A stretch of 64,000 nucleotides of DNA, taken from the NCBI GenBank assembly GCA_027082925.1, contig JALWTD010000011.1:124001-188000 (forward strand). Reading direction: 5' to 3'. The position numbers were made by a program, and so were the translations under genes. Positions 32,916-55,778 of this stretch are shown here, in pieces (within the stretch, counting starts at the first letter, position 1; each line of letters opens with the position of its first letter). The stretch is from Flavobacteriaceae bacterium. Lineage in GTDB: Bacteria > Bacteroidota > Bacteroidia > Flavobacteriales > Flavobacteriaceae. The notes below the pieces were generated by a model, which saw only the letters and a list, made by a program, of their open reading frames with translations, searched no databases and was not told the origin of the DNA.

Positions 32916-34202
32916 TTAAATAATTTTTAATAAGAAATAGCTTTTTTTACCTCTTTGAAGTAACACAAACTTATCTGCAATTAAATCTTTTGTGGTAATT
33001 ATAAAATCGTCTTTCACCTTTTCTTTATTAACGGAAATAGAGTTTTCTTTTAAAGCTCTCCTTACTTCTCCGTTAGATTTAAGGAATCCATTTTCTGCAA
33101 AAGCCGGAACAATTTCCAAGCCATTTTCAATAACACTGCGCTTCACTTCTGCTTGAGGAACACCATCAAAAACATCTAAAAAAGTTTGTTCATCTAATGT
33201 TTTTAAGTCTTCAGCAGTCGATTTTCCAAATAAAATACTAGAAGCTTTAATAGCATTTTTATAAGCTTCTTCTCCATGAGTCATTATAGTTACTTCTTCG
33301 CCAATTTTTTTTTGAAGAATGCGTAAATGAGGAGCTTCTTTGTGTTCAGTAATTAATTTTTCTATAGTTTCTTTATCTAAAAAGGTAAATATTTTAATGT
33401 ATTTTTCAGCATCTTCATCCGATGAATTTAACCAATATTGGTAAAATTTATAAGGAGATGTTCTTTTTGCATCAAGCCAAACATTACCGCCAGCTGTTTT
33501 CCCAAACTTAGAGCCATCGGCTTTAGTTATTAGTTTACAAGTTAAGGCGTATGCTTTTCCTTGTGCTTTTCTTCTAATTAACTCTGTTCCGGTTGTTATA
33601 TTTCCCCACTGATCTGAGCCTCCCATTTGAAGCATACAGTTTTTTTCTTTATACAAATGGTAAAAATCATATCCTTGAAATAACTGGTAGGTAAATTCGG
33701 TAAAACTCATTCCGGTTTGTGATTCTGAACTCAATCTTTTTTTAACAGAATCTTTGGCCATCATATAGTTTACTGTAATGTGCTTACCAACATCTCTAAC
33801 AAATTCGATAAGAGAAATTTCTTTCATCCAATCGTAATTATTTACGAGTTGTGCAGCATTTTCAATATCGTTATCAAAATTTAAAAAACGCGTTAGTTGC
33901 GCTTTTACACCGGAAATATTTTTAGCCAAAGTCTCTTCGTCTAATAAGTTACGTTCGTCAGATTTTCCTGAAGGATCTCCAACCATACCGGTTGCTCCTC
34001 CAACAAGAGCAATAGGATGATGCCCGGCTTTTTGAAAATGCATTAATATAATAATTGGCACTAAACTACCAATATGTAAAGAATCTGCCGTAGGATCAAA
34101 TCCAATGTATCCGGTAGTTTTATTTTTTAATAAGTAGTCTTCTGTTTCGGGCATAATATCGTGTAACATGCCTCTCCAACGTAATTCTTCAACAAAATTC
34201 AT
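32916..34202 (-). CDS. tyrS: tyrosyl-tRNA synthetase
   Basis: 428 aa from [15 protein letters not shown] (ATG at 34202; ATG at 34205 adds one residue). Class I motifs: [14 protein letters not shown] (HIGH-like) and [10 protein letters not shown] (KMSKS-like KFGKT). The [12 protein letters not shown] tyrosine/tRNA motif and a C-terminal S4 RNA-binding domain (ISVNKEKV) are present. The in-frame TTG at 34226 lies in the -7 box and is rejected. Convergent with the luxE-like gene. Confidence 0.97.
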
Positions 34203-34223
34203 CATCAAAAGTTTAAATTTTAG

Positions 34224-34231
34224 CAAAGATA
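34224..34231 (-). promoter_or_regulatory. -7 promoter box of tyrS
   Basis: TATCTTTG on the minus strand, exact TAnnTTTG, 21 nt before the tyrS ATG. Confidence 0.55.
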
Positions 34232-34286
34232 AAATTTTAGTTGTTAGTTAAGGTTTTAGCCGTTATATTTTTTATAATTTCGTTGT

Positions 34287-35297
34287 ATGATTTTAGTTAC
34301 AGGAGGCACAGGTTTGGTAGGAGCTCATTTGTTGTATTTTCTTTCTTTGGAAAATGATACGATAAGAGCTATTCACAGAAAAAACAGTGATTTAAAAGCT
34401 GTAAAGAAAGTTTTTGAGTTTTATACACCTAATTTTGAGGCACTTTTTAACAAAATTGAATGGGTAGAGGCTGATATTACAGATGTTTTTTTACTAGAAA
34501 AAGCATTTCAAAATATTTCGATGGTATATCATGCGGCTGCACTAGTGTCTTTTAATCCGAAAGATTACTACAAGCTACGAAAAGTAAATATTGAGGGTAC
34601 TTTTAATGTAGTTAACTTATGTATAAGCTCAAAGGTTAAAAAATTGTGCTTTGTTAGTTCTATTGCTACCATAGGAAAAACTGTAAATGAAGAGGTTATG
34701 ACTGAAGAAGGTGAATGGAACGCAGAAAGCAGTAATTATGGTTATGCTATTACAAAATATGGAGCAGAAATGGAGGTTTGGAGAGCTTCTCAAGAAGGTG
34801 TTGATGTGGTAATTGTTAATCCGGGAGTTATTTTAGGTGCCGCATTTTGGGAAAAAGGAAGTGGCGCTATTTTTACAAAAGTAGCAAATGGATTAAAATT
34901 TTATACGGAAGGAATTACAGGATTTGTTTCGGTAGAAGATGTGGTAAAGGCAATGATACTTCTTGTTAAAAATAAAGTAAAAAACGAGCGGTTTATTTTA
35001 GTTTCAGAAAATCTAAGTTTTAAAAATGTATTTTTTCAAATAGCAGATTGTTTAAAAATTAAAAGGCCGTATATAAAGGTAAGTACTTGGATGAGTGCTG
35101 TTGCTTGGAGATTGGAATTGCTAAAAACACTATTGACTAAAAAGCCGCTACTTTTAACAAAACACTCGGCAAAATCAATCCATCAAAAAAGATATTATTC
35201 TTCAGAAAAAATAATTAGCATGCAACAATTTGTGTTTGAGCCAATTTCAGAAACTATAAAAAAAGTTTGTGCTTTGTACAAACAGCGCCAAGCCTAA
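34287..35297 (+). CDS. NAD-dependent epimerase/dehydratase (extended SDR)
   Basis: 336 aa. N-terminal VTGGTGLVGAHLLYFL binds NAD; YHAAALVSF and SNYGYAITKYGAEMEVW give the catalytic YxxxK. Extended SDR close to dihydroflavonol-reductase-like enzymes. The substrate is not evident; no sugar cluster is beside it. Its TAA stop shares four bases (CTAA) with the stop of the convergent DUF4296 gene. TAATTTCG at 34275-34282, just before the ATG, is a weak -7 match. Confidence 0.88.
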   Translation: MILVTGGTGLVGAHLLYFLSLENDTIRAIHRKNSDLKAVKKVFEFYTPNFEALFNKIEWVEADITDVFLLEKAFQNISMVYHAAALVSFNPKDYYKLRKVNIEGTFNVVNLCISSKVKKLCFVSSIATIGKTVNEEVMTEEGEWNAESSNYGYAITKYGAEMEVWRASQEGVDVVIVNPGVILGAAFWEKGSGAIFTKVANGLKFYTEGITGFVSVEDVVKAMILLVKNKVKNERFILVSENLSFKNVFFQIADCLKIKRPYIKVSTWMSAVAWRLELLKTLLTKKPLLLTKHSAKSIHQKRYYSSEKIISMQQFVFEPISETIKKVCALYKQRQA

Positions 35298-35722
35298 TTT
35301 TTAGGTTTTCTTTCTCCTCGAGTTCTTTTTCCCTTTTTTACAAAAGGATTTTTTAGTTTTCGTTTAGAAGAATCTTGTTTTCTAATCATTTCTTCGGTTT
35401 GTTGTTTAAGTAACTTTAGTCTTTGATCAACCTCTCTTAAAATATCATCGTAGTCATCAATTCTGGAGGTGTAATAAAAATTACTTTCTTTAAAACGAGT
35501 CGTATCAATATGATATTTTTTAAAAACCAGTGGGAAGTAATTTACTTTTCGTTCAATATTTATGTTTTTAACATTTTGGGCACCTGAAGCCAATAATAAA
35601 TCGGTTATTAAATCAACCATTTGATTTTTTGGAATCAAATTTTTAGGTTTTTTAATAATGGTATTACTTGTACAAGCTGTTAAAACAGCACCTAGAAAAA
35701 ATATGTAAAAAAATCTAGTCAT
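35294..35722 (-). CDS. DUF4296 family lipoprotein
   Basis: 142 aa. Signal with lipobox VLTACTS. Mature domain PKNLIPKNQMVDLITDLLLA and VFKKYHIDTTRFKESNFYYT identify DUF4296, a small Bacteroidota lipoprotein of unknown role. Basic, charged C-terminal tail. Its start overlaps the pyrC stop by one base, so it is translationally coupled to pyrC, although a functional link is not obvious. Confidence 0.85.
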   Translation of the reverse strand: MTRFFYIFFLGAVLTACTSNTIIKKPKNLIPKNQMVDLITDLLLASGAQNVKNINIERKVNYFPLVFKKYHIDTTRFKESNFYYTSRIDDYDDILREVDQRLKLLKQQTEEMIRKQDSSKRKLKNPFVKKGKRTRGERKPKN

Positions 35723-37065
35723 TACGTTCTGTTAAATTGCAAACGTTTTCCTTTAATAGTGCCTTTAAATTTACCGTTGTCGTAAATTAAGTTACCATTT
35801 ACAAAGGTATGTGTTATTTTTGAAAAGAAGGTAGTACCTTCAAAAGGAGACCATCCGCATTTATAGAGAATATTACCTTTAGTTACGGTCCAAGGTTCAG
35901 CAATATCAACAAGTACTAAATCGGCAAAAAATCCCTTTTTAATAAACCCTCGTTTTTCTATTTTAAAGATTTTGGCAGGGTTATGACACATTTTTTCCAC
36001 CACCTTTTCCAGTGAAATTTTTTCTTCTCTATACATTTTTAGCATAGCTGGTAACGCGTGTTGTACCAACGGTCCACCGCTAGGTGCTTTGGTATATACT
36101 TGTTCTTTTTCTTCTTTAGTGTGCGGTGCATGGTCTGTAGCAATAACATCAATTCTATCATCTAATAAAGCTTTCCACAAACCTTCTCTATCTTTACTTG
36201 TTTTAATTGCCGGATTCCATTTTATAAAAGTACCTTTAGTATCGTAGTCACTATCATCAAACCATAAGTGATGTACACAAACTTCGGCAGTAATTTGCTT
36301 TTGTTCTACAGGAATTTTATTTGAAAACAAGTTTGTTTCTTTGGCTGTTGAAAGATGAAAAACATGTAGTCTTGCTCCTGTTTTTTTTGCAAGCTTTATA
36401 GCTTTAGATGAAGAGATATAACACGCTTTTTCGCTTCTAATTAGCGGGTGCATTTTTATTGGAATATTATCTCCGTACTCATTCAGGTAATTTTCTAAAT
36501 TGGTTTTTATGGTAGCCTCATCTTCACAATGAACGGCTATTAGCATTTTTGTTGAAGAAAATATTTTTTCAAGAACACTTTCATCGTCAACAAGCATATT
36601 TCCTGTGGAAGATCCTAAAAATAATTTAATTCCGGCTACGTTAGACGGGTTTACCTTTAGCAATTCTTCAAGGTTATCATTAGTTCCTCCAAACATAAAG
36701 GAATAATTTGCATAAGATGTTTTTGAAGCAATTTCAAATTTATCTTCCAGTAGTTTTTGTGTGGTTGCCTGTGGTATGGTGTTTGGCATTTCTATAAAAG
36801 AAGTAATACCGCCTGCAACAGCAGCTTTACTTTCAGTTTCAATAGTAGCTTTGTGAGTAAGTCCAGGTTCTCTAAAGTGAACTTGATCATCAATTACTCC
36901 CGGCATTAAGTATTTTCCTTCCGCATCAATAACTGTGGTATTGGCAGATTTTGAGCTTATTGAAGTATCTATATCAACAATGTATTCTCCGTCTATTAAA
37001 ACATCACCTTCAATGATGCTTCCCTCATTAACAATTTGAGCATTTTTTATAAGTATCAACCCCAT
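35722..37065 (-). CDS. pyrC: dihydroorotase
   Basis: 447 aa. Cyclises carbamoyl-aspartate to dihydroorotate in pyrimidine synthesis. Amidohydrolase barrel: PGVIDDQVHFREPGLTHKAT, GIKLFLGSSTGNML (Lys for the metal bridge), ATDHAPHTKEE (final Asp) and HLSTAKE. The first metal motif reads DDQVH where most dihydroorotases have DxHxH, so Gln replaces the first His. From memory the Porphyromonas enzyme reads the same, so this is likely a Bacteroidota trait. Sits between a GT2 gene and a DUF4296 gene on one strand. Confidence 0.9.
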   Translation of the reverse strand: MGLILIKNAQIVNEGSIIEGDVLIDGEYIVDIDTSISSKSANTTVIDAEGKYLMPGVIDDQVHFREPGLTHKATIETESKAAVAGGITSFIEMPNTIPQATTQKLLEDKFEIASKTSYANYSFMFGGTNDNLEELLKVNPSNVAGIKLFLGSSTGNMLVDDESVLEKIFSSTKMLIAVHCEDEATIKTNLENYLNEYGDNIPIKMHPLIRSEKACYISSSKAIKLAKKTGARLHVFHLSTAKETNLFSNKIPVEQKQITAEVCVHHLWFDDSDYDTKGTFIKWNPAIKTSKDREGLWKALLDDRIDVIATDHAPHTKEEKEQVYTKAPSGGPLVQHALPAMLKMYREEKISLEKVVEKMCHNPAKIFKIEKRGFIKKGFFADLVLVDIAEPWTVTKGNILYKCGWSPFEGTTFFSKITHTFVNGNLIYDNGKFKGTIKGKRLQFNRT

Positions 37066-45420: not shown

Positions 45421-47274
45421 ATGTGTGGAATTACCAGCTATTTAGGCTATAGAGATGCTTATCCTATTGTTATTAACGGATTACAGCGTTTAGAATATAG
45501 AGGTTATGATAGCGCAGGAATTGTGCTTGTTGATGATGAATACAACGTAAACCTATACAAAACCAAAGGAAAAGTTTCGGACCTAAAAGAAATTGCCGAA
45601 AAAAATAATACGAGCGGATGCATGGGATTAGGACATACTCGTTGGGCAACTCACGGAATTCCAAACAATGAAAACTCACATCCACACACTTCAAATTCAG
45701 GTAATTTAGTAATTGTTCACAATGGAATTATAGAAAACTACGATACCATAAAAAAAGAATTACTTACAAGAGGTTATACTTTTAAAAGCGAAACAGATAC
45801 CGAAGTTTTAGTAAACTTAATTGAAGAAGTAAAAAAGCAAAACAATTGCAAATTAGGAAAGGCTGTACAAATAGCTTTAACAAATGTGGTAGGAGCTTAC
45901 GCTATTGCTATTTTTGATGTAACTAAAAAAGATGAAATTATAGTAGCTCGTTTGGGAAGTCCTATAGCTATTGGTATTGGCGAAGACAATAAAGAGTTTT
46001 TTGTAGCTTCTGACGCTTCACCATTTATAGAATACACTAAAGATGCTGTGTATTTGGATGATGAAGAATTAGCCATTATTAAGCTAGGAAGAGACATTAG
46101 AATTAGAAAAATAAACGATGATTCTGTTGTAGAAACAAACGTACAAGAGCTTAAATTAAACTTAGAGCAAATAGAAAAAGGTGGGTATGAGCATTTTATG
46201 CTAAAAGAAATTCACGAACAACCAAAAGCCATTTTAGATACTTATAGAGGAAGATTACTTGCCGATAAGGGAATTATTAAAATGGGTAGTGTAGATAATA
46301 ATATTGCTAAGTTTTTAAATGCAAACCGTATAATAATTGTTGCCTGTGGTACTTCTTGGCATGCCGGTTTAGTGGCTGAGTATTTGTTTGAAGACTTGGC
46401 ACGTATTCCTGTAGAAGTTGAGTACGCATCAGAATTTAGATATAGAAATCCGGTAATAAATAAAAACGATATTGTAATTGCAATTTCTCAATCGGGAGAA
46501 ACGGCAGATACCTTAGCAGCAATAAAATTAGCAAAATCTAAAGGCGCTTTTGTTTTTGGTGTTTGTAATGTTGTTGGTTCGTCTATTGCCAGAGAAACGC
46601 ACTCTGGAGCATATACACATGCAGGTCCAGAAATAGGAGTTGCTTCAACAAAAGCATTTACAACCCAAATAACCATACTAACTTTAATCGCCTTAAAACT
46701 AGGAAATTTAAAAGGAGAGCTTTCAAACTCTGTATTCCATCATTATTTACAGGAGTTAAACTTAATACCTGCTAAGGTAGAAAACCTTCTAAAAATAAAT
46801 TCAGAAATAGAAAATATTGCGGCTATTTATAAAGATGCTCCTAATTGTTTGTACTTAGGAAGAGGTTATAATTTTCCGGTAGCTCTAGAAGGTGCTTTAA
46901 AGTTAAAAGAAATCTCTTACATTCACGCAGAAGGTTATCCTGCGGCAGAAATGAAACACGGGCCTATTGCGCTTATAGATGAGTTTATGCCGGTGGTTGT
47001 AATTGCCACTAAAAAAGGACATTACGATAAAGTTGTTAGTAATATTCAAGAAATTAAGTCTAGAAACGGAAAAATTATTGCCATAGTTACTAAAGGAGAT
47101 ATTACCGTAAAAGAAATAGCAGATCATATTATTGAAATTCCTGAGACAGAAGAAGCTTTTTCTCCTTTACTAACCACAATACCATTACAATTGTTATCCT
47201 ATCATATTGCTGTAATGAGAGGCTGTAACGTAGATCAACCTCGTAATTTAGCAAAATCGGTAACAGTAGAGTAA
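45421..47274 (+). CDS. glmS: glucosamine-6-phosphate synthase (isomerising)
   Basis: 617 aa. Uses glutamine to convert fructose-6-phosphate to glucosamine-6-phosphate for wall and LPS. Catalytic Cys2 in MCGITSYLGYRDA, glutaminase motif GHTRWATHGIPNNEN; two SIS domains with IVACGTSWHAG, AISQSGETADTL and STKAFTTQ; C-terminus DQPRNLAKSVTVE. Complete. No glmS ribozyme is possible in the 15-bp gap upstream. Confidence 0.97.
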   Translation: MCGITSYLGYRDAYPIVINGLQRLEYRGYDSAGIVLVDDEYNVNLYKTKGKVSDLKEIAEKNNTSGCMGLGHTRWATHGIPNNENSHPHTSNSGNLVIVHNGIIENYDTIKKELLTRGYTFKSETDTEVLVNLIEEVKKQNNCKLGKAVQIALTNVVGAYAIAIFDVTKKDEIIVARLGSPIAIGIGEDNKEFFVASDASPFIEYTKDAVYLDDEELAIIKLGRDIRIRKINDDSVVETNVQELKLNLEQIEKGGYEHFMLKEIHEQPKAILDTYRGRLLADKGIIKMGSVDNNIAKFLNANRIIIVACGTSWHAGLVAEYLFEDLARIPVEVEYASEFRYRNPVINKNDIVIAISQSGETADTLAAIKLAKSKGAFVFGVCNVVGSSIARETHSGAYTHAGPEIGVASTKAFTTQITILTLIALKLGNLKGELSNSVFHHYLQELNLIPAKVENLLKINSEIENIAAIYKDAPNCLYLGRGYNFPVALEGALKLKEISYIHAEGYPAAEMKHGPIALIDEFMPVVVIATKKGHYDKVVSNIQEIKSRNGKIIAIVTKGDITVKEIADHIIEIPETEEAFSPLLTTIPLQLLSYHIAVMRGCNVDQPRNLAKSVTVE

Positions 47275-47609: not shown

Positions 47610-48341
47610 ATGAATAGTACATTAAAATCAATTATAAATAGAGGATTACTTGGAGCTTTGCTTTTTGCTACTACTCTTACAATTAACGCCCAAGATTTAA
47701 GTAATAATCTAAAAATTTGGGGAGGATTAAGTTTTTCGTACAAAGCGAGTGACAATGTAACGCTAAAACTAGGACAACTTTTTGCATACAACGCCTCACC
47801 TAGTAGTTATAGTTTTTCTCAAACTAAATTAGGAGTATCTTATAAAATTAAGAGAAGAACATACGTTGAGGCAGGATATGTTAGAGGTTTGTTTAATGAT
47901 ACAAATTCTTTAAGAGCACAAGGAGCTACATCAGGATGGTTTAATAAATTAGCAGTAGATAGAGTGTACGCAAACTTTTCTTACAAGCACGATATTGTTA
48001 AACGATTGTCTTTAAAACACAAGTTTGAATTTCAATACTTTTTTCCTGATTTAGATAAATATAAAACACGAGCTATTTATTCGGCAAGGTTAGGATATAA
48101 TGTCAGAAGATCAAGTTTTTCACCTTATATAGAAGGACAAGTTTACAATTATGGTGGAGGAATTATCTCAGGAGGTTTTAAGAGATTTAGATTTAAAACT
48201 GGATTTAGCTTTAAGCCAATTAAAGATTCTTCAATGAAAACATCTTTCTATTATTTAGCTCAAAACGAATACAATACAGATCAGTTAGCAGATAACGATT
48301 ACGCTGTAGTAGGATTTAGCCTTTCATTTAAATTAAACTAA
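47610..48341 (+). CDS. DUF2490-like outer-membrane beta-barrel protein
   Basis: 243 aa. Signal peptide (LLGALLFATTLTINAQ) followed by alternating strands in the manner of a 10-12-strand barrel: LKIWGGLSFSYKASDNVTLK, FYYLAQNEYNTDQLADNDYA and a C-terminal GFSLSFKLN with the terminal aromatic belt. Fits DUF2490, outer-membrane proteins of unknown role. It is 26 bp upstream of a P-loop gene and two genes upstream of an ABC half-transporter, so it could be an export pore or a sensor. Confidence 0.75.
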   Translation: MNSTLKSIINRGLLGALLFATTLTINAQDLSNNLKIWGGLSFSYKASDNVTLKLGQLFAYNASPSSYSFSQTKLGVSYKIKRRTYVEAGYVRGLFNDTNSLRAQGATSGWFNKLAVDRVYANFSYKHDIVKRLSLKHKFEFQYFFPDLDKYKTRAIYSARLGYNVRRSSFSPYIEGQVYNYGGGIISGGFKRFRFKTGFSFKPIKDSSMKTSFYYLAQNEYNTDQLADNDYAVVGFSLSFKLN

Positions 48342-48367
48342 AAAAATCAACCCAAAAAAATACAGTC

Positions 48368-49456
48368 ATGAGATTACAAAAAATAAATTCAAAAAAAATA
48401 AAAAGAGCTATCATTTGTAAAAATGTAACGAGCACTACCATAAACAAACATATTAAAAAAACATACGTACCAAAAGCAGGTGATGTTGCTATCTTTAGAG
48501 TAAAAGAAATAGGAAAGCACACACGTATTCAATCTGTTGGAGGAAACAATAAGTATATTTTACCCGGAGATTTGGTAATGGCAACATTTGGAAACAGATA
48601 TGCTACAGGTCAAATGGAAGGTTATGTGCCAGACACATATCATACAACATACCATATTCTTGGTCAAGGAGGTGCGGTAGGTGTTCTTAAAAGTATGCAC
48701 TTAAAATTTGAAAAAGTAGGACCTACAACCCTAAGTTTGGTTGGTTATATTGTAAACGAAAAAGGGGATGTGGTAAATACCAAATACCTTAGAAACGAAG
48801 AGGTGGTTAAAAAAACAATCCCTTTAAATGCGAATGCTAAAGTTATTTTATCTTTAGGAACAAGCATGGATAGTGGAAAAACAACATCGGCAGCATTTTT
48901 AGCACGTGGCTTAAAACTTGCCGGAAAAAAAGTAGCGTATATTAAACTAACAGGAACGGTTTATACAAAAGATAAAAGTATGGTAAGAGATTACGGAGCA
49001 GAAGTTGTTTTAGATTTCTCTGATTTTGGATTCCCTTCTACCTACATGTGCTCTACAGATGAATTGTTAAAACTATACAAAAGAATAACAGCGCAAATTA
49101 AACCGTACAATCCAGATTATATTTTAGTTGAGGTTGCAGATGGCTTATTGCAAAGAGAAACACACGCTTTAATAAATAACAAGAAGTTTAAAGATAAAGT
49201 TTCTGGTGTTGTTTTTTCATCTCAAGACAGTATGAGTGCAATTTCTGGAGCTGATATGCTAACAAAACTAAAGTACAATATTATTGGAGTTACCGGACTT
49301 TTTACAACGAGCCCACTATTAGTAGATGAGGTTAGACAAAGTTCAAATTACACTGTTTTAGAAGGAAAAGACTTGATGTCTAAAGAAATAATAGATACTT
49401 TAGAAAAAAAAATAAACTACCAAAATTTTGAGAACAAAATGGCAATTAATAGCTAA
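48368..49456 (+). CDS. DUF1611-like P-loop protein
   Basis: 362 aa. The N-terminal ~150 residues are a beta-rich domain with KAGDVAIFRVKEIGKHTRIQ and GNRYATGQMEGYVPDT. The C-terminal half is a P-loop domain: VILSLGTSMDSGKTTSA (P-loop at 164-172), LARGLKLAGKKVAYIKLTGT and ILVEVADGLLQRET. This resembles the BioD/MobB/DUF1611 group of the SIMIBI P-loop superfamily. DUF1611 members N-acylate or transform amino acids, but the substrate here cannot be inferred. In a cluster with a DUF2490-like gene and an ABC half-transporter. Confidence 0.68.
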   Translation: MRLQKINSKKIKRAIICKNVTSTTINKHIKKTYVPKAGDVAIFRVKEIGKHTRIQSVGGNNKYILPGDLVMATFGNRYATGQMEGYVPDTYHTTYHILGQGGAVGVLKSMHLKFEKVGPTTLSLVGYIVNEKGDVVNTKYLRNEEVVKKTIPLNANAKVILSLGTSMDSGKTTSAAFLARGLKLAGKKVAYIKLTGTVYTKDKSMVRDYGAEVVLDFSDFGFPSTYMCSTDELLKLYKRITAQIKPYNPDYILVEVADGLLQRETHALINNKKFKDKVSGVVFSSQDSMSAISGADMLTKLKYNIIGVTGLFTTSPLLVDEVRQSSNYTVLEGKDLMSKEIIDTLEKKINYQNFENKMAINS

Positions 49457-51125
49457 TTTTTTAAAAAGTAACCGTTCTTTAGTAGCGGTTACTTTTTTAA
49501 GTGGCTTGTGTTACAACATTTTTACATTATTAATTCCTATTAGCTTAGGACGCTTTTACGAGTTTAACTTTGGCTTTTCTTCGCATAGGCTTAGGTTACT
49601 TGAGTTTTTACCTTTTATCAACACAAAAAGCTTTAAAACCTTTTTTATCTTCTTTTTAGTACTTGTTTTTATTCGTTTTATGTTCGAATATTTAAACAAG
49701 TATTTTACGGCTATTATTGGAGAGCGTTTTGCTAAAAACTTAAGAGAAGAACTTTTTAAACACCAACTTCAAATAAACGCTTCGGTTTACAATCAAAAAG
49801 GAATAGGGAAATATTTGTTACGGTATAGTGGCGATTTAAAAAGTATTCAAAACTATGTAACAAGAGGCTTATTTAGGTTTTCTCAAGATTTATTTTTGAT
49901 TGTATTTTTGCTGGTTACCATTGCGTATATAGATATTCATTTAGGTTCTATAGTTGCCATTTCTATAGCTGTTTCAATACTTATATTGTTTTTTATTAAT
50001 AACATACTTTACGCAATATCTGTAAAGAGAAGAAATCACAGGTCAACAATGTTAACCTTTGTAAATACCAGATTAAGAGCAATACACACCATAAAAGCAT
50101 TAAACAAATATTCTACAGAAGAAAAGAGGTATACAAGGCGCTCTGAAAAACTATTTCTTTTAGGGAAAAAATATCAGCTAACCGTAAGTTTAATTCAGGC
50201 TATTATCCCGGCATTAACATATACAATGTTGGCGGTGCTAATGTGGTACGTATATTATTTAAAAACAACAAAAGGAAGCGAGTTTCATCAATCTTCATTA
50301 CTAATATTAATACTTTTAATTATTTCATTTTTACCTATTTTAAGACGTACACTTAGAGTTAGTATTATTTGGAAACTAGGAAATATTTCGTTTGAAAAAC
50401 TATTAAATATATTTTCTTTAGACGCTGAAAATGAAATTCCTATAAAGCGAATTAGTTTAGCTTCAAAAGAAATTAAGTTTAACAATGTTCAGTTTAAATA
50501 CCCAACATCAGAAAATATTATTTTTAAAGCATTAAACTTAGTACTTTACCCTAAAACAACAACAGTAATTATAGGGAGCTCCGGAAGCGGAAAGAGTACG
50601 TTTATAAATTTATTATTAAAAATTTACAGACCAACAAAAGGTACTATAAGGTATGGAAAATACAGCCATAGAAAAATTGCTGAAAAAACAATTAGGCGAA
50701 ATATAACGGTTATTTCTGATGCTTTTCCCTTGTATGGAAAAACGGTGTATGAAGCTATTGTACATATACGAAATAGTGAAAAAAAAATAAAGGCAGCTCA
50801 ATTACTAGAAGAACTTCAGCAGTTTGAAAGCAAGAAAAATTGGTTGGAATTGCACGACCCTATAGGCGATTTAGGAAACACACTTACTAGCGGGCAAAAG
50901 AAAATTTTAATGTACTGTCGTGCATTATTAACAAATAAACCTTGGATTATAATAGATCAACCTTTTAAAAACTTGAATCCAAAAACTGTTGCTCATATAA
51001 AAAACATCTTATACAAACTAAAAACAAAAAAGACGTTTGTTATTTTAGATACAAAAATTCCGGAAGGTATTGTTGCCGAAAATATCTACAAAATTGAAAA
51101 TGGCACTGTGATTAAACAAGAGTAA
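49428..51125 (+). CDS. ABC half-transporter with degenerate ATPase domain
   Basis: 565 aa from TTG 49428, overlapping the P-loop gene by 29 bp. Six helices (residues ~18-315) of exporter type, then a nucleotide-binding domain. A-loop FKYP and Walker A IIGSSGSGKST (382-391) are intact; signature is LTSGQ (486-490). Walker B ends IIIDQ with Gln511 in place of the catalytic Glu, the H-loop His is missing (FVILDTKIPEG), and the Q-loop Gln is Asp (TVISDAFPLYG). Binding of ATP is likely, efficient hydrolysis is not. It may be the silent half of a heterodimer or a nucleotide-gated protein. Confidence 0.85.
   Translation: MRTKWQLIANFLKSNRSLVAVTFLSGLCYNIFTLLIPISLGRFYEFNFGFSSHRLRLLEFLPFINTKSFKTFFIFFLVLVFIRFMFEYLNKYFTAIIGERFAKNLREELFKHQLQINASVYNQKGIGKYLLRYSGDLKSIQNYVTRGLFRFSQDLFLIVFLLVTIAYIDIHLGSIVAISIAVSILILFFINNILYAISVKRRNHRSTMLTFVNTRLRAIHTIKALNKYSTEEKRYTRRSEKLFLLGKKYQLTVSLIQAIIPALTYTMLAVLMWYVYYLKTTKGSEFHQSSLLILILLIISFLPILRRTLRVSIIWKLGNISFEKLLNIFSLDAENEIPIKRISLASKEIKFNNVQFKYPTSENIIFKALNLVLYPKTTTVIIGSSGSGKSTFINLLLKIYRPTKGTIRYGKYSHRKIAEKTIRRNITVISDAFPLYGKTVYEAIVHIRNSEKKIKAAQLLEELQQFESKKNWLELHDPIGDLGNTLTSGQKKILMYCRALLTNKPWIIIDQPFKNLNPKTVAHIKNILYKLKTKKTFVILDTKIPEGIVAENIYKIENGTVIKQE
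49463..49498 (+). terminator. terminator-like hairpin inside the ABC gene, after the P-loop gene
   Basis: AAAAAGTAACCG (49463-49474) pairs perfectly with CGGTTACTTTTT (49486-49497), loop TTCTTTAGTAG, ending in a T-run. It begins seven bases after the P-loop stop but lies in codons 12-24 of the ABC gene. If functional it would reduce transcription of the transporter relative to the genes upstream. Confidence 0.55.
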
Positions 51126-51128
51126 GTA

Positions 51129-51740
51129 CTAACTTACAGTATCGTGAACCATAGTATGCATGCCATTATTCCATAAAGTTAAAATATCGGTAGCTACTTG
51201 TGCTCCACTTCCGGCTGCAATGGCAAACTGACTTCTCCAACCAGCAAGTACACCGGCCACATAAATACCTTTAGTTACTAAATGGTTCGTATTTTTTAGC
51301 ATTATTCGTTCTTTTTGAGCAGGTAAACTATGATGAGGTTCTACATATTGAGTTAAACCTTCAATATTAAATAAATTAGATGGGCCAACAGCAACTACCA
51401 CAATTTTAGCCTTGTAGGTATTTTTATTTGTTGTTACTTCAAAATTCGGGTATTCTCCGGTTATTTTAGTAACCTTTTCTTTTTCTATTTGTTGTATATG
51501 CGGGTATAGTTCTGATAGTTGAGCAGCACCTTTTTCAAGAATATCACCACCTTTTGTGCCTTTATCAAAGCCTAAAACATTATTTAATTCTGCATTTTTT
51601 AGTGCAGAACTTTTTTGATGCATAACAATGCCTATTTTTTTTGAAGCTACAAAAGGTTTTTGTGAGGCAGAACCTAAAACTAAAGCGCAAGATAAACCTG
51701 CTGCGCTTCCTCCAATAATAAGTGTGTCAAAAGAATCCAT
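51129..51740 (-). CDS. short FAD-dependent oxidoreductase, thioredoxin-reductase-like, lacking the NAD domain
   Basis: 203 aa against ~310 in full TrxR. N-terminal FAD motif LIIGGSAAGLSCALVLG and a C-terminal FAD motif, KGIYVAGVLAGWRSQFAIAA, are visible. The usual Gly-Asp of AAGD is GV, the CxxC redox pair and the inserted NAD(P) domain are absent. The sequence is coherent throughout, so it is a minimal family member rather than a pseudogene. Convergent with the ABC gene (3 bp apart). Nine bases upstream is the displaced marC end. Substrate unknown. Confidence 0.75.
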   Translation of the reverse strand: MDSFDTLIIGGSAAGLSCALVLGSASQKPFVASKKIGIVMHQKSSALKNAELNNVLGFDKGTKGGDILEKGAAQLSELYPHIQQIEKEKVTKITGEYPNFEVTTNKNTYKAKIVVVAVGPSNLFNIEGLTQYVEPHHSLPAQKERIMLKNTNHLVTKGIYVAGVLAGWRSQFAIAAGSGAQVATDILTLWNNGMHTMVHDTVS

Positions 51741-51749
51741 TATAAAAAA

Positions 51750-51971
51750 TTAATTGTTAAACAATCCTTGAATGTTTGATGTACATAATTTTACAGCAAT
51801 TTCCAGTAAAACTACACCAAAAATTTTACGAATTACACTAATACCAGATTTTCCTATAATATGCTCTATTTTATGAGATAGTTTTAAAACAGAGTAAACA
51901 AAAATCATGTTGATAAAAATAGCAATAATAATATTTATAGTTTCAAACTCTGCTTTTAAAGATAAAATAGA
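51750..51971 (-). pseudogene. displaced 3' end of marC (222 bp)
   Basis: Encodes 73 codons equal to the C-terminal third of MarC from SILSLKAEFE onward, then GLFNN and a stop. Outside the last ~35 bases only three bases differ from the intact marC at 54548, whereas the last 35 bases differ at seven or more. No start and no upstream part; the copy ends abruptly 6 bases before the LamG stop at 51977. This is a direct duplication formed when the LamG segment entered the marC locus. Confidence 0.85.
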
Positions 51972-51976
51972 GTATT

Positions 51977-54250
51977 TTACATTAGGACAAATTTTACAGA
52001 TTTTACAGCGCTTTCTGTGTAAATTTTTATAATATAATTACCTGTAGGTAAAAGGCTTAAGTCTAAATAAGTGTGTTTAGAATTAATTAATTTTTTAATT
52101 TGTTGTTGCCCTAATAAATTAAATATTTCAACATGTTTAATTTCTTCTTTAGCGGTTAATATTAATGTTTTTTCTGCAGGATTAGGGTACATATTAAAAC
52201 CGTCTATAACATTTTCTTCAACACTTAATGTTAAATCTTCAGCAGCAGTCCATCTACCTCCTATACTATTATTATAGCTGACTGAAATAGTATTGTTTAC
52301 GGTATTTATAGTTCCGCCTTTATTTACCCAACTACTACCACCATCAGTAGATTGAAATAGTTTTAAGTTAGCCTCATTTAAACCATTGAGTTCACTATCG
52401 TCATAATTAAATGTAACAGTTGCATTTAATTCTGCATCTGAAGTAGGAGTAATATCGAAATAACGTTTTACACTATTGTTTATAGCTCCAGTTTGAACAG
52501 TATGACCACGTGAAACAACAGTACTTCCCATATAACCAGCATTAAGAGTAATACCAAACCCTGCAACATTTTCGTTAACGGAAGAAAAATTTCTTGTAGT
52601 GGTAATTGTGCCTGTATTTCCACTAATTAACCCAGTATCTTCAAATAGAGTTGAAGTGCTTCCAAAAGTAATAGTTTGACCATTTAAATCTAAATTATCA
52701 TATAAAAATAAATTTCCGTTTACCGTGAGGTTTGAACTTAAGGTTATATTTGCACTAGTGCCAATTATGAGGTTGTTTACAGTTGGTGTTCCTGATAAAA
52801 TAGGCGACGAACCACTATAATTATAAATCCCTACATTATCTGTTGAAACAGGAATTCCATTACTCCAGTTTGTAGCTGTTGTCCAAGAGGTATTATTAGT
52901 ATTAAGCCATGTATTAAAGGCAGTAGAATTTACTGATTCGTCTCCATCTCCAGTTATAATTCCGTCGTTTCCACCTACTGTAACATCTGCTACGTCTTTA
53001 GTATCAAGGTTATAATAAGCTACAAGATTAGCTTCAGTTCCGAGTAATGTTTTATACATATTTTCTCGAATTTCCGATTCGGTGCGTATATCATTCCAAA
53101 CACGAACTTCATCTATAGTACCATTAGTTAATACTCTAGTAAGGTTTTGAGATGAAGCTATTGATGAATTTCCTGACGGTATAATAGGATCTATTGGATC
53201 TCCAACTTCAGAAAATACAGAAACACCATCTAAAAATACGGTACAGTTACCCACTCCATCTACTGTAAAAGCCACATGGTGCCAACCCGTTCCAATATTT
53301 ACACCTGTTGGAATCCACCTTACCAAATCATATAAAACAATAAGTTCATTACCTAAATTATCCCACAATGTACTTCCAACACCAATACCATATCCAACAT
53401 CGTGATTACCGAGATGCACAAAAGCACCTTTTTCACTTGTACTAGGTAAATTTACCCAACACTCTGCTGAAGTAGATGTTGATGCTAATCCAAAAGTTGA
53501 AGGAATTGTGACATAGTCATCAGTAATAAATTGCATGGCTCTTTTGGGACCAAAAAATGCAGCTGATGGAGACCATTCAGTTCCTGCCATATTTATTAAA
53601 GTACCTGTATTAGAATTAACGCTATTATCAACAAGAGATACTCCTGAATTAGCATTTGAATTGAAATAAGCTACTAAATTAGTTTCATTACCAACCAACT
53701 CTTTATACATACTAGCACGTATCTCTGCTTTTGACCTTGCATAACTCCAAATACGAATTTCATCAATAGCACCCTTAAAAACCCCACTATCATCACTTAT
53801 AGATGTATTTCCCGATGGTGAATTCGCAAATTGTTGGGAAATAGGATTCGTAGCCATTAAAACACCATTAAGATAAATATTTTGGTTTATACCATCATAT
53901 GTATACGCTAAGTGATACCACTTATTAGCGGTTAATACAGAGTTTGGGGACTCAACTTTTGTCCAACCACTGGTAGCAAATACACTGCTACCATAAAACC
54001 CACCATTGGTATTTAACCATATGGCATGTCCATTTAAATCAGCAATTTCAATTACATTCTGTAGGTTGTTAATTAAGGCCGGTTTAACCCAAACGGATAT
54101 TGAAATTTGGTCATTACTAGTAAAATCTAATAAATTTAAATCTACCCTATCATCAATTCCATCAAAATTGAGGGCGTTGTTTTGGGCATTAGTTAAGGTA
54201 GGAGATAAAAAAATAAAAATCAAGGTTAAAAAAAATTGTACTTTTTTCAT
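51977..54250 (-). CDS. secreted LamG-domain protein with type IX sorting signal
   Basis: 757 aa. Signal peptide LTLIFIFLSPTLTNAQ. Two concanavalin/LamG-like domains (about 28-200 and 245-430), each with a DEIR/VWxxxR core (IDEIRIWSYARSKAEIRAS; TIDEVRVWNDIRTESEIREN). A middle repetitive region follows (NNLIIGTSANITLSSNL). The C-terminal ~70 residues form a type A type IX sorting domain: FNMYPNPAEKTLILTAKE, then TYLDLSLLPTGNYIIKIYT and VKFVLM. Probably a surface or secreted carbohydrate-binding protein. It lies between two marC copies, so it is a recent insertion or duplication. Confidence 0.88.
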   Translation of the reverse strand: MKKVQFFLTLIFIFLSPTLTNAQNNALNFDGIDDRVDLNLLDFTSNDQISISVWVKPALINNLQNVIEIADLNGHAIWLNTNGGFYGSSVFATSGWTKVESPNSVLTANKWYHLAYTYDGINQNIYLNGVLMATNPISQQFANSPSGNTSISDDSGVFKGAIDEIRIWSYARSKAEIRASMYKELVGNETNLVAYFNSNANSGVSLVDNSVNSNTGTLINMAGTEWSPSAAFFGPKRAMQFITDDYVTIPSTFGLASTSTSAECWVNLPSTSEKGAFVHLGNHDVGYGIGVGSTLWDNLGNELIVLYDLVRWIPTGVNIGTGWHHVAFTVDGVGNCTVFLDGVSVFSEVGDPIDPIIPSGNSSIASSQNLTRVLTNGTIDEVRVWNDIRTESEIRENMYKTLLGTEANLVAYYNLDTKDVADVTVGGNDGIITGDGDESVNSTAFNTWLNTNNTSWTTATNWSNGIPVSTDNVGIYNYSGSSPILSGTPTVNNLIIGTSANITLSSNLTVNGNLFLYDNLDLNGQTITFGSTSTLFEDTGLISGNTGTITTTRNFSSVNENVAGFGITLNAGYMGSTVVSRGHTVQTGAINNSVKRYFDITPTSDAELNATVTFNYDDSELNGLNEANLKLFQSTDGGSSWVNKGGTINTVNNTISVSYNNSIGGRWTAAEDLTLSVEENVIDGFNMYPNPAEKTLILTAKEEIKHVEIFNLLGQQQIKKLINSKHTYLDLSLLPTGNYIIKIYTESAVKSVKFVLM

Positions 54251-54327
54251 ACATATTCAATTTAAGTGAGGAATTTATAAAAACCCTTTTAACAAAGGTA
54301 TGGACTAGAATTAATAAAAATAAATCT

Positions 54328-54357
54328 AAAAAAATATGACAAGTATCATATTTTTTT
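54328..54357. terminator. A/T hairpin between marC and the LamG gene
   Basis: AAAAAAATATGA-CAAGTA-TCATATTTTTTT, a perfect 12-bp stem. Both strands end in a T-run, so it could terminate the marC transcript before the LamG gene. The rest of the 297-bp gap (54251-54547) is AT-rich with no other clear signal. Confidence 0.5.
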
Positions 54358-54547
54358 GAAATTCAAACGCTAAAATTAAGAGCAATAGATATATCAATTT
54401 CTAAAAAAATTCAACTAAGTTGAAGATAATTTATTGTAACAGCATACTATTTAGATTCTTTTAAAAACTAATTGAACATTAATTTTTAACCTTTTTCTTT
54501 TAGATAATAGATAAGATTTTTTACTATTATGATAGTAGTTAAAAATA

Positions 54548-55120
54548 TTAAAATAGTCCTTTAATATTTGAAGTAAACAATTTTACAGCAATTGCCAGTA
54601 AAACTACACCAAAAATTTTACGAATTACACTAATACCAGATTTTCCTATAATGTGCTCTATTTTACGAGATAGTTTTAAAACAGAGTAAACAAAAATCAT
54701 GTTGATAAAAATAGCAATAATAATATTTATAGTTTCAAACTCTGCTTTTAAAGATAAAATAGAAGTCATTGTTCCTGCACCTGCAATTAAAGGAAAAGCT
54801 AAAGGAACTACACTTGCTGTTTCTGGCTGTTCATCTTTAAAAATGGTAATTCCCAAAATCATTTCCAAGGCTAAAAATAAAATTACAATAGCACCGGCAA
54901 TGGCAAAAGAATTTACGTCAATTCCTACAAGGTTTAAAATACTTTCGCCCACAAATAAAAAGGCAACCATAATTATGATAGCTACTATTGATGCTTTTTC
55001 TGATTGAATATGCCCAACCTTATTACGTAGCTCAATAATAATAGGAATGCTACCAATAATATCAATTACAGCAAACAATACCATTGTTGCAGTTAAAATT
55101 TCTTTCAGATTAAATCCCAT
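54548..55120 (-). CDS. MarC family integral membrane protein
   Basis: 190 aa from ATG 55120 (MGFNLKEILTATMVLFAVID). Five to six helices: IGSIPIIIELRNKVG, SILNLVGIDVNSFAIAGAIV, VPLAFPLIAGAGTM and a C-terminal hydrophobic tail. MarC (UPF0056) proteins are inner-membrane proteins of unclear role, once thought linked to multiple antibiotic resistance. A longer frame to 55177 is rejected since it contains the -7 box. Its last 222 bp are duplicated at 51750-51971; this copy is intact, possibly a recombinant with a new C-terminus. Confidence 0.88.
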   Translation of the reverse strand: MGFNLKEILTATMVLFAVIDIIGSIPIIIELRNKVGHIQSEKASIVAIIIMVAFLFVGESILNLVGIDVNSFAIAGAIVILFLALEMILGITIFKDEQPETASVVPLAFPLIAGAGTMTSILSLKAEFETINIIIAIFINMIFVYSVLKLSRKIEHIIGKSGISVIRKIFGVVLLAIAVKLFTSNIKGLF

Positions 55121-55211: not shown

Positions 55212-55778
55212 ATGTTTCAACTAGGAAAAACAATAGTATCAGAAGATATCATAGAAAAAGAGTTTGTATGTAATCTTAACGCATGCAAAGGTGTTTGTTG
55301 TATTGACGGAGAAGCCGGTGCACCTTTAAACGAAGATGAATTAAAAACTTTAATGGATATTTATCCTAAAGTAAAACCATTTTTAAGGCCTGAAGGAATA
55401 AAAGCAATTGAAGAACAAGGGCTTTTTATAACAAATGAAGGAGAGTACGAAACACCATTAATTGAAGGAAAAGCTTGTGCATATGTAATTTTTGATCAAA
55501 AAAAGATTGCCAAATGCGGAATTGAAGAAGCTTTTAACAAAGGAAAAATAAATTGGAAAAAACCTATATCTTGCCACCTGTACCCTGTCAGAATTATGGA
55601 TTACAGTGAGTTTTCTGCGGTAAACTACCATAAATGGCCAATATGTAACGATGCGTGTACCTTAGGAAAAGAATTAAAAGTGCCGGTATATAAATTTGTA
55701 AAAGAAGCATTGATTAGAAAATTTGGGGAAGACTGGTATTTAGAACTTGAAAAAGTAGCCGAAAAACATTTAAAGTAA
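55212..55778 (+). CDS. DUF3109 family cysteine-rich protein
   Basis: 188 aa. Cys-rich: CNLNACKGVCCIDGEAGAPL, ACAYVIFDQKKIAKCGIEEA, ISCHLYPVR and WPICNDACTL. These four Cys clusters identify DUF3109, a Bacteroidota family relative of the YkgJ-type metal/Fe-S binding proteins. Probably binds a metal or Fe-S cluster in the cytoplasm. Function not known. Divergent from marC. Confidence 0.87.
   Translation: MFQLGKTIVSEDIIEKEFVCNLNACKGVCCIDGEAGAPLNEDELKTLMDIYPKVKPFLRPEGIKAIEEQGLFITNEGEYETPLIEGKACAYVIFDQKKIAKCGIEEAFNKGKINWKKPISCHLYPVRIMDYSEFSAVNYHKWPICNDACTLGKELKVPVYKFVKEALIRKFGEDWYLELEKVAEKHLK

Follow-up and report, generated by a model that had tools for sequence, protein, structure and literature searches.

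One-sided insertions of DNA are known from laboratory crosses in the studies cited here (PMC3240628, PMC3784515). When E. coli received DNA homologous at a single end, 56 of 60 clones showed a PCR sign of target gene end duplication, and illegitimate recombination had produced a deletion in the remaining 4 (PMC3240628). The duplications measured 109-950 bp in 14 sequenced clones and were attributed to a single crossover of shortened, recircularised linear molecules, the single crossovers being RecA-dependent (PMC3240628). Homology-facilitated illegitimate recombination has been recorded in three naturally competent species and in E. coli (PMC3240628), and merodiploids arise in pneumococcus transformation when donor fragments pair on sister chromatids and generate duplications (PMC3784515). 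Within the family of the genome studied here, two Riemerella species are naturally competent, whereas Flavobacterium johnsoniae proved non-competent when tested alongside them (PMC7965970).

Here we analyze a locus at which a LamG gene follows the 3' end of marC and is itself followed by a partial second copy of that end. Insertion by one-sided recombination at the marC end, with duplication of the target gene end, is well supported, and we consider it probable that a foreign marC end and the LamG gene were joined to the host by homology on one side, duplicating 185 bp of host marC. Compared to the E. coli insertion-duplications, the locus likewise has cargo at a gene 3' end and a partial copy of the gene end, but it is natural and unselected and its copies differ in two blocks (PMC3240628). 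Homology-facilitated illegitimate recombination combines homology at one end with an illegitimate join at the other, as may have happened here; however, it deletes recipient DNA (PMC3240628), whereas here 185 bp are duplicated and the joint shows no recipient deletion, the marC end and the FAD gene both being retained with a 9-nt gap between them. Pneumococcal merodiploids have tandemly duplicated stretches, about 100-900 kb long and formed between repeats (PMC3784515), in contrast to 185 bp around foreign cargo at this locus. Among the literature matches listed for marC as an insertion site or for natural Campbell-type scars, none concerned this case. The locus is a naturally occurring example of a scar type already known, and not a new system.

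The following features lie in the window, by which we mean the whole stretch of DNA analyzed (64,000 nt).

51129-51740, minus strand: FAD/pyridine nucleotide oxidoreductase gene (PF07992), native downstream neighbor of marC by gene order in relatives.
51750-51786, minus strand: native marC 3' end (IQGLFNN, then stop) beside the FAD gene, with genus-typical end and gap.
51787-51971, minus strand: repeat body, displaced copy.
51971-51972, no strand: junction at the repeat boundary, five bases past the LamG stop and then marC from codon 119.
51977-54250, minus strand: LamG gene, 757 aa, inserted (PF13385 and PF18962; single copy at E <= 0.001).
54251-54547, minus strand: AT-rich spacer between intact marC and the LamG start, 297 bp, 19% GC, without another genomic copy.
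54548-54578, minus strand: presumed foreign 3' end of intact marC, repeat positions 186-216, with 9 differences in 31 nt and the change point at 185.
54548-55120, minus strand: intact marC, 190 aa, MarC family (PF01914), its end set against 47 relatives.
54548-55120, minus strand: the same gene as we read it, a putative hybrid of native body and atypical 3' end (TSNIKGLF, then stop).
54579-54593, minus strand: 15-bp identical tract, the last identity before the divergent end and the site of the proposed crossover (other copy at 51787-51801).
54579-54763, minus strand: repeat body, copy within intact marC, with 3 differences in 185 nt.
55212-55778, plus strand: DUF3109 gene (PF11307), native upstream neighbor of marC by gene order in relatives.

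Read along the minus strand, the order is marC, spacer, LamG gene, a 5'-truncated marC 3' end (51750-51971), 9 nt and the FAD gene. An earlier reading made from the sequence alone had placed a copy of the marC 3' end beyond LamG in the same orientation, and the alignment bears this out: 51752-51971 and 54544-54763 form a direct repeat of 220 nt at 94% identity, with a start-to-start spacing of 2792. One copy lies inside intact marC and the second separates the LamG stop from the FAD gene, so that the cargo is bracketed by direct copies of host sequence, of which one completes marC and the other is truncated. The two share identical tracts of at most 97 bp; beyond this pair, exact direct repeats in the window reach no more than 21 bp, and no other direct or inverted repeat of at least 60 bp was found across its 64 kb. 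Across all 200,163 bases of contig C11 the search, at the setting used, returned, besides the marC-end pair, only a cluster of short-spaced direct repeats (33853-36509), and the first 200,000 bases of contig C14 gave solely short-spaced direct repeats (spacing up to 1332). LamG is the sole sizeable gene between the marC copies, two short opposite-strand frames lying mostly inside it. The spacer has only short matches elsewhere in its own genome (best other E 0.001 over 26 bases). Scans for promoters and terminators yielded fewer sites than shuffled sequences did. At the junction, the inverted repeat TAAAATA-CTC-TATTTTA was set aside, since the window has 1.6 such 7-bp pairs per kb when loops of 3-8 are allowed.

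The differences between the two marC-end copies are unevenly distributed. Numbered in marC orientation from position 1 (51971 in one copy, 54763 in the other), the copies differ up to the intact stop at positions 98, 111 and 170, and then at 186, 188, 192, 198, 202, 208, 210, 214 and 216. This amounts to 3 differences in 180 for the body versus 9 in 36 for the end (Fisher 6e-6), and the best change point, at 185, was equaled in 10 of 20,000 permutations (stop codon omitted, 10 differences in 213). The sequence-only reading had counted three differences in the first ~185 bp and seven or more in the final ~35, in agreement with the 3 in 185 and 9 in the next 31 found here. The ratio of end to body divergence is thus about 15 between the copies, compared to a median of 0.90 and a maximum of 2.3 among 406 pairs from 29 relatives. 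Body divergence is 1.7%, by which the scar appears young, and before the stop 4 of the 6 codon differences in the end, a small sample, are synonymous, as expected if both ends had diverged while functional, before the event. The bodies thus seem to have parted recently, and the ends to differ as do the ends of different species.

This pattern bears on the mechanism that the sequence-only reading had favored, a Campbell-type crossover between the chromosome and a circle bearing LamG together with a marC 3' fragment. One-sided insertion and duplication of the target end stand. However, if a single foreign circle had integrated, the whole length of the repeat would reflect the distance between donor and host, with equal divergence in body and end, and this is not what is seen (3 in 180 versus 9 in 36). 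Plain Campbell integration, in which the circle came from a closely related strain and entered by one RecA crossover in marC, would yield exactly the product anatomy seen, and E. coli target-end duplications of 109-950 bp are ascribed to such a route (PMC3240628). Yet the ratio of about 15 lies beyond all 406 relative pairs, and the explanation works only if the donor was of the same species with an already foreign marC end, or if the body was converted; we regard it as unlikely. The repeat body would be duplicated host DNA, or converted DNA, or the contribution of a donor of the same species that already had a foreign marC end.

We compared the site with marC loci read in 47 relatives, comprising 11 genomes from other families and all but one of the 37 others in the genus (36; G033 has no close marC and was left out). 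All 36 genus loci compared belong to other species. Run on these, the comparison with an empty site that had been put forward along with the sequence-only reading found marC running directly into the FAD gene in 33 of 36 loci, with a gap of 1-61 nt in 32 of them and -94 in G027, and no second marC copy longer than 60 bp in any of the 33. FAD does not follow marC in G016, G017 and G004, of which G017 alone has a second marC end; this is also the only one among the 47 relatives' loci with a second end longer than 60 bp, beside a different neighboring gene. Ten other loci show short, weak matches of 15-50 bp to their own marC end, and some relatives' contigs end soon after marC, which limits the view of second ends. 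In G028, G011, G026 and G007, each read over at least 20 kb, gene order matches the window from 45421-47274 leftwards and in the marC-DUF3109 pair rightwards, with further right-hand genes matching in G011 only. The empty site, together with the conserved flanking order, indicates that LamG and the extra marC end are an insertion in this lineage. Elsewhere in the same neighborhood, DUF2490, P-loop and ABC transporter genes (47610-51125) lie between the FAD gene and its usual neighbor (45421-47274); the three are missing from that place in G028, G026 and G007, and G011 has other genes there. The P-loop protein is weakly like DUF1611, below the DUF1611 cut-off.

Gene trees introduce a second possibility for how the block arrived. 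The marC gene groups with G028 and G016 apart from the rest, with strong support (100/99), while the FAD gene groups with the common type (96/92), away from G028. Such a split, and a FAD-side marC end of the common type, would be produced if the marC-LamG-marC end arrangement had arisen in another strain or species and the block had then entered by an ordinary double crossover. This two-step history requires a donor already carrying the duplication, and none was seen; moreover, the marC grouping may be old, since marC is 88% identical to that of G028, within the range of neighboring genes. We consider such a history quite unlikely, as is its corollary that the right edge of the exchange falls in the FAD-side copy near position 180, leaving the end of that copy and the FAD gene native. 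An older replacement or exchange of marC at this locus is possible on the tree evidence.

The two ends can be told apart by comparison with the genus. The FAD-side end reads TSNIQGLFNN and the end of intact marC TSNIKGLF. Of the 36 other genus loci, 35 (all but G017) have Q where intact marC has K, whereas K is found in 5 of 11 loci outside the genus, by an alignment made by eye. Ends in HN or QN occur in 14 of the 36, and the full form IQGLF[HQ]N in 11 of 36. Two proposals of the sequence-only reading thereby gain ground: that the old end was displaced to the side of the FAD gene, and that the empty site should carry a GLFNN-type end. The gap from this end to the FAD gene is 9 nt here and 10-15 nt in most relatives. 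In the motif LLAIAVKLF the FAD-side copy has E in place of A, a change within the body part, and C in place of F, a change within the end, and both A and F are kept in 29 of 29 relatives listed; loss of these conserved residues is a mark of a dead copy. An in-frame upstream start codon is absent from the stretch read, with one ATG inside the copy. The FAD-side copy is thus the displaced native marC end, now decaying, and the end of intact marC would be of foreign origin. That end spans ~31-36 nt, too short for naming a donor; compared over 36 nt with the nearest sister, G028, the intact end has 8 differences and the native end 7. Matching the 36-nt ends to relatives by nucleotide was tried and singled out no donor, the nearest relative of the marC end being G028 at 80% DNA identity.

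An old insertion whose body was later homogenized by gene conversion, its end left free to diverge, would also result in a two-block pattern. However, the FAD-side end otherwise keeps KL-TSNIQGLF, with F to C as its sole change from the common form, and an old dead end would have lost more. A 213-bp repeat is also a place where short-read assemblies can fail, but both flanks of this one follow the gene order of relatives, and identity between its copies is unbroken for no more than 97 bp. We give very little credence to either explanation.

We return to one-sided recombination with homology at a single end and consider how it may have proceeded. The incoming DNA would have carried the LamG gene behind a marC 3' end that came from a different lineage. 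A homologous join would have formed at one end alone, within 54579-54593 of the marC coding end, while the other end, five bases past the LamG stop, would have been attached at codon 119 of host marC with no long homology to guide it; the two sides at 51971 share no long homology. Because codon 119 lies upstream of the crossover, the overlap would duplicate 185 bp of host marC. What results would be a hybrid marC, still intact but with its 3' end replaced, then the LamG gene, and finally the displaced native end decaying beside the FAD gene. Only the end of intact marC would be foreign, its 185-bp body being host DNA or converted to host. By a linear route, the second join would be an illegitimate one or a template switch; by a circular route, a recircularised molecule would have integrated through one crossover, with the marC body converted to host sequence during integration. 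The two-block divergence makes this conversion a requirement of the circular route. The E. coli duplications were ascribed to circles and one-ended illegitimate events there gave deletions, a precedent that favors a circle here. We infer the order of the joins, and the intermediate may have been either linear or recircularised. ComEC is present in the genome, but matches were also obtained in 10 of 14 controls, so its presence says nothing on competence. In this natural scar the two joins and the two gene ends can still be read, which makes it a useful worked example of how a genome may gain a gene for a surface protein with no mobile element in sight and no loss of the target gene.

Tyrosine-integrase elements typically insert at the 3' end of a gene, restore the gene end and displace the old one, and their usual att cores are far shorter than 185 bp. 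The present locus resembles them in its restored and displaced ends but has no integrase, no short core and a single cargo gene. A site-specific integrative element with the marC 3' end as its attachment site, or a transposon remnant, might have left this arrangement, and the genome does have three tyrosine recombinase matches; these, however, sit on other contigs (C14, C19). A Pfam scan of eight neighboring or nearby genes (marC, LamG, FAD, DUF3109, TPR-LuxR, DUF2490, P-loop and ABC) found no integrase or transposase, in line with what the sequence-only reading had reported, and there is no recombinase between the copies. Repeat searches at the locus gave no terminal inverted ends and no short target duplication, and the near-identical core measures 185 bp, well beyond the usual att length. 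In G031, the stretch beside a LamG relative (L066 1-780, contig C253) has what we take, by eye, to be the look of a broken IS6-type transposase, a point in favor of a mobile origin. Overall we judge an integrative element or transposon remnant very improbable.

One relative has a marC-end duplication of its own. In G017 (L119 8563-10400), the marC end precedes a 150-aa gene that has no Pfam match; next come a decayed marC end and a second version of the gene, with no FAD gene. The marC ends match over 108 bp at 87%, and the gene versions share 96 of 150 residues (64%). We rejected this locus as the same kind of insertion since both its ends are of one type and the downstream gene is shared. 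An older tandem duplication appears to fit it better, although the gene copies (64%) are more diverged than the marC ends (87% over 108 bp). Among 37 genus loci, only the one described here and that of G017 carry a second marC end, beside unrelated neighboring genes, and these two are also the only ones with a K-type end, a coincidence that we noticed after the fact and that may be chance. That the marC 3' end is a recurrent, integrase-free docking point, at which RecA-dependent one-sided insertion brings in foreign ends and single-gene cargo, strikes us as decidedly doubtful.

The origin of the cargo was sought among related genomes and mobile-element collections. The LamG gene is single-copy in its own genome. 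Across 38 genus genomes, its own included, 34 have a match at E <= 0.001, mostly to single LamG or sorting domains, and the sole other full-length relative in the genus is that of G031, at 55% identity. The G031 relative lies on a 3222-bp contig (C253), while the marC locus of G031 reads directly into FAD; the contig was considered as a circle and rejected, having no terminal overlap. Among 395 order genomes, its own included, two reached E <= 1e-60, namely its own and G066 (42%, part of the protein), in a search that scored at most two candidates per genome and so may have missed some. GTDB contigs, from which close relatives of this genome may be absent, gave 12 LamG loci, the best at 50%. 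LamG matched 28 records in a plasmid collection and 5 in a phage collection, none covering 80%, and had no match among viral contigs; the lack of any record with a near LamG relative in these collections argues against plain Campbell integration. When the marC end with the spacer was searched against the same 395 genomes, G052 and G416 were the two others to match, each through the marC part alone, and no donor with marC adjoining LamG was found in the genomes searched. LamG is thus rare as well as single-copy.

The LamG protein has two ConA-like stretches of Laminin_G_3 and a Por_Secre_tail by Pfam, and its type IX C-terminal sorting domain (PF18962) scores 42 bits against a cut-off of 27. 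From these domains, its product is predicted to be a secreted carbohydrate-binding or adhesive protein. The genome has 19 matches to sorting domains of the PF18962 type, 18 of them marked above the cut-off. Outside the window, the direct repeats at 33853-36509 of contig C11 are long and 78-90% identical, and they extend as far as a sorting domain match of the type IX kind (36565-36768), which lies in an open frame of 1568 aa.
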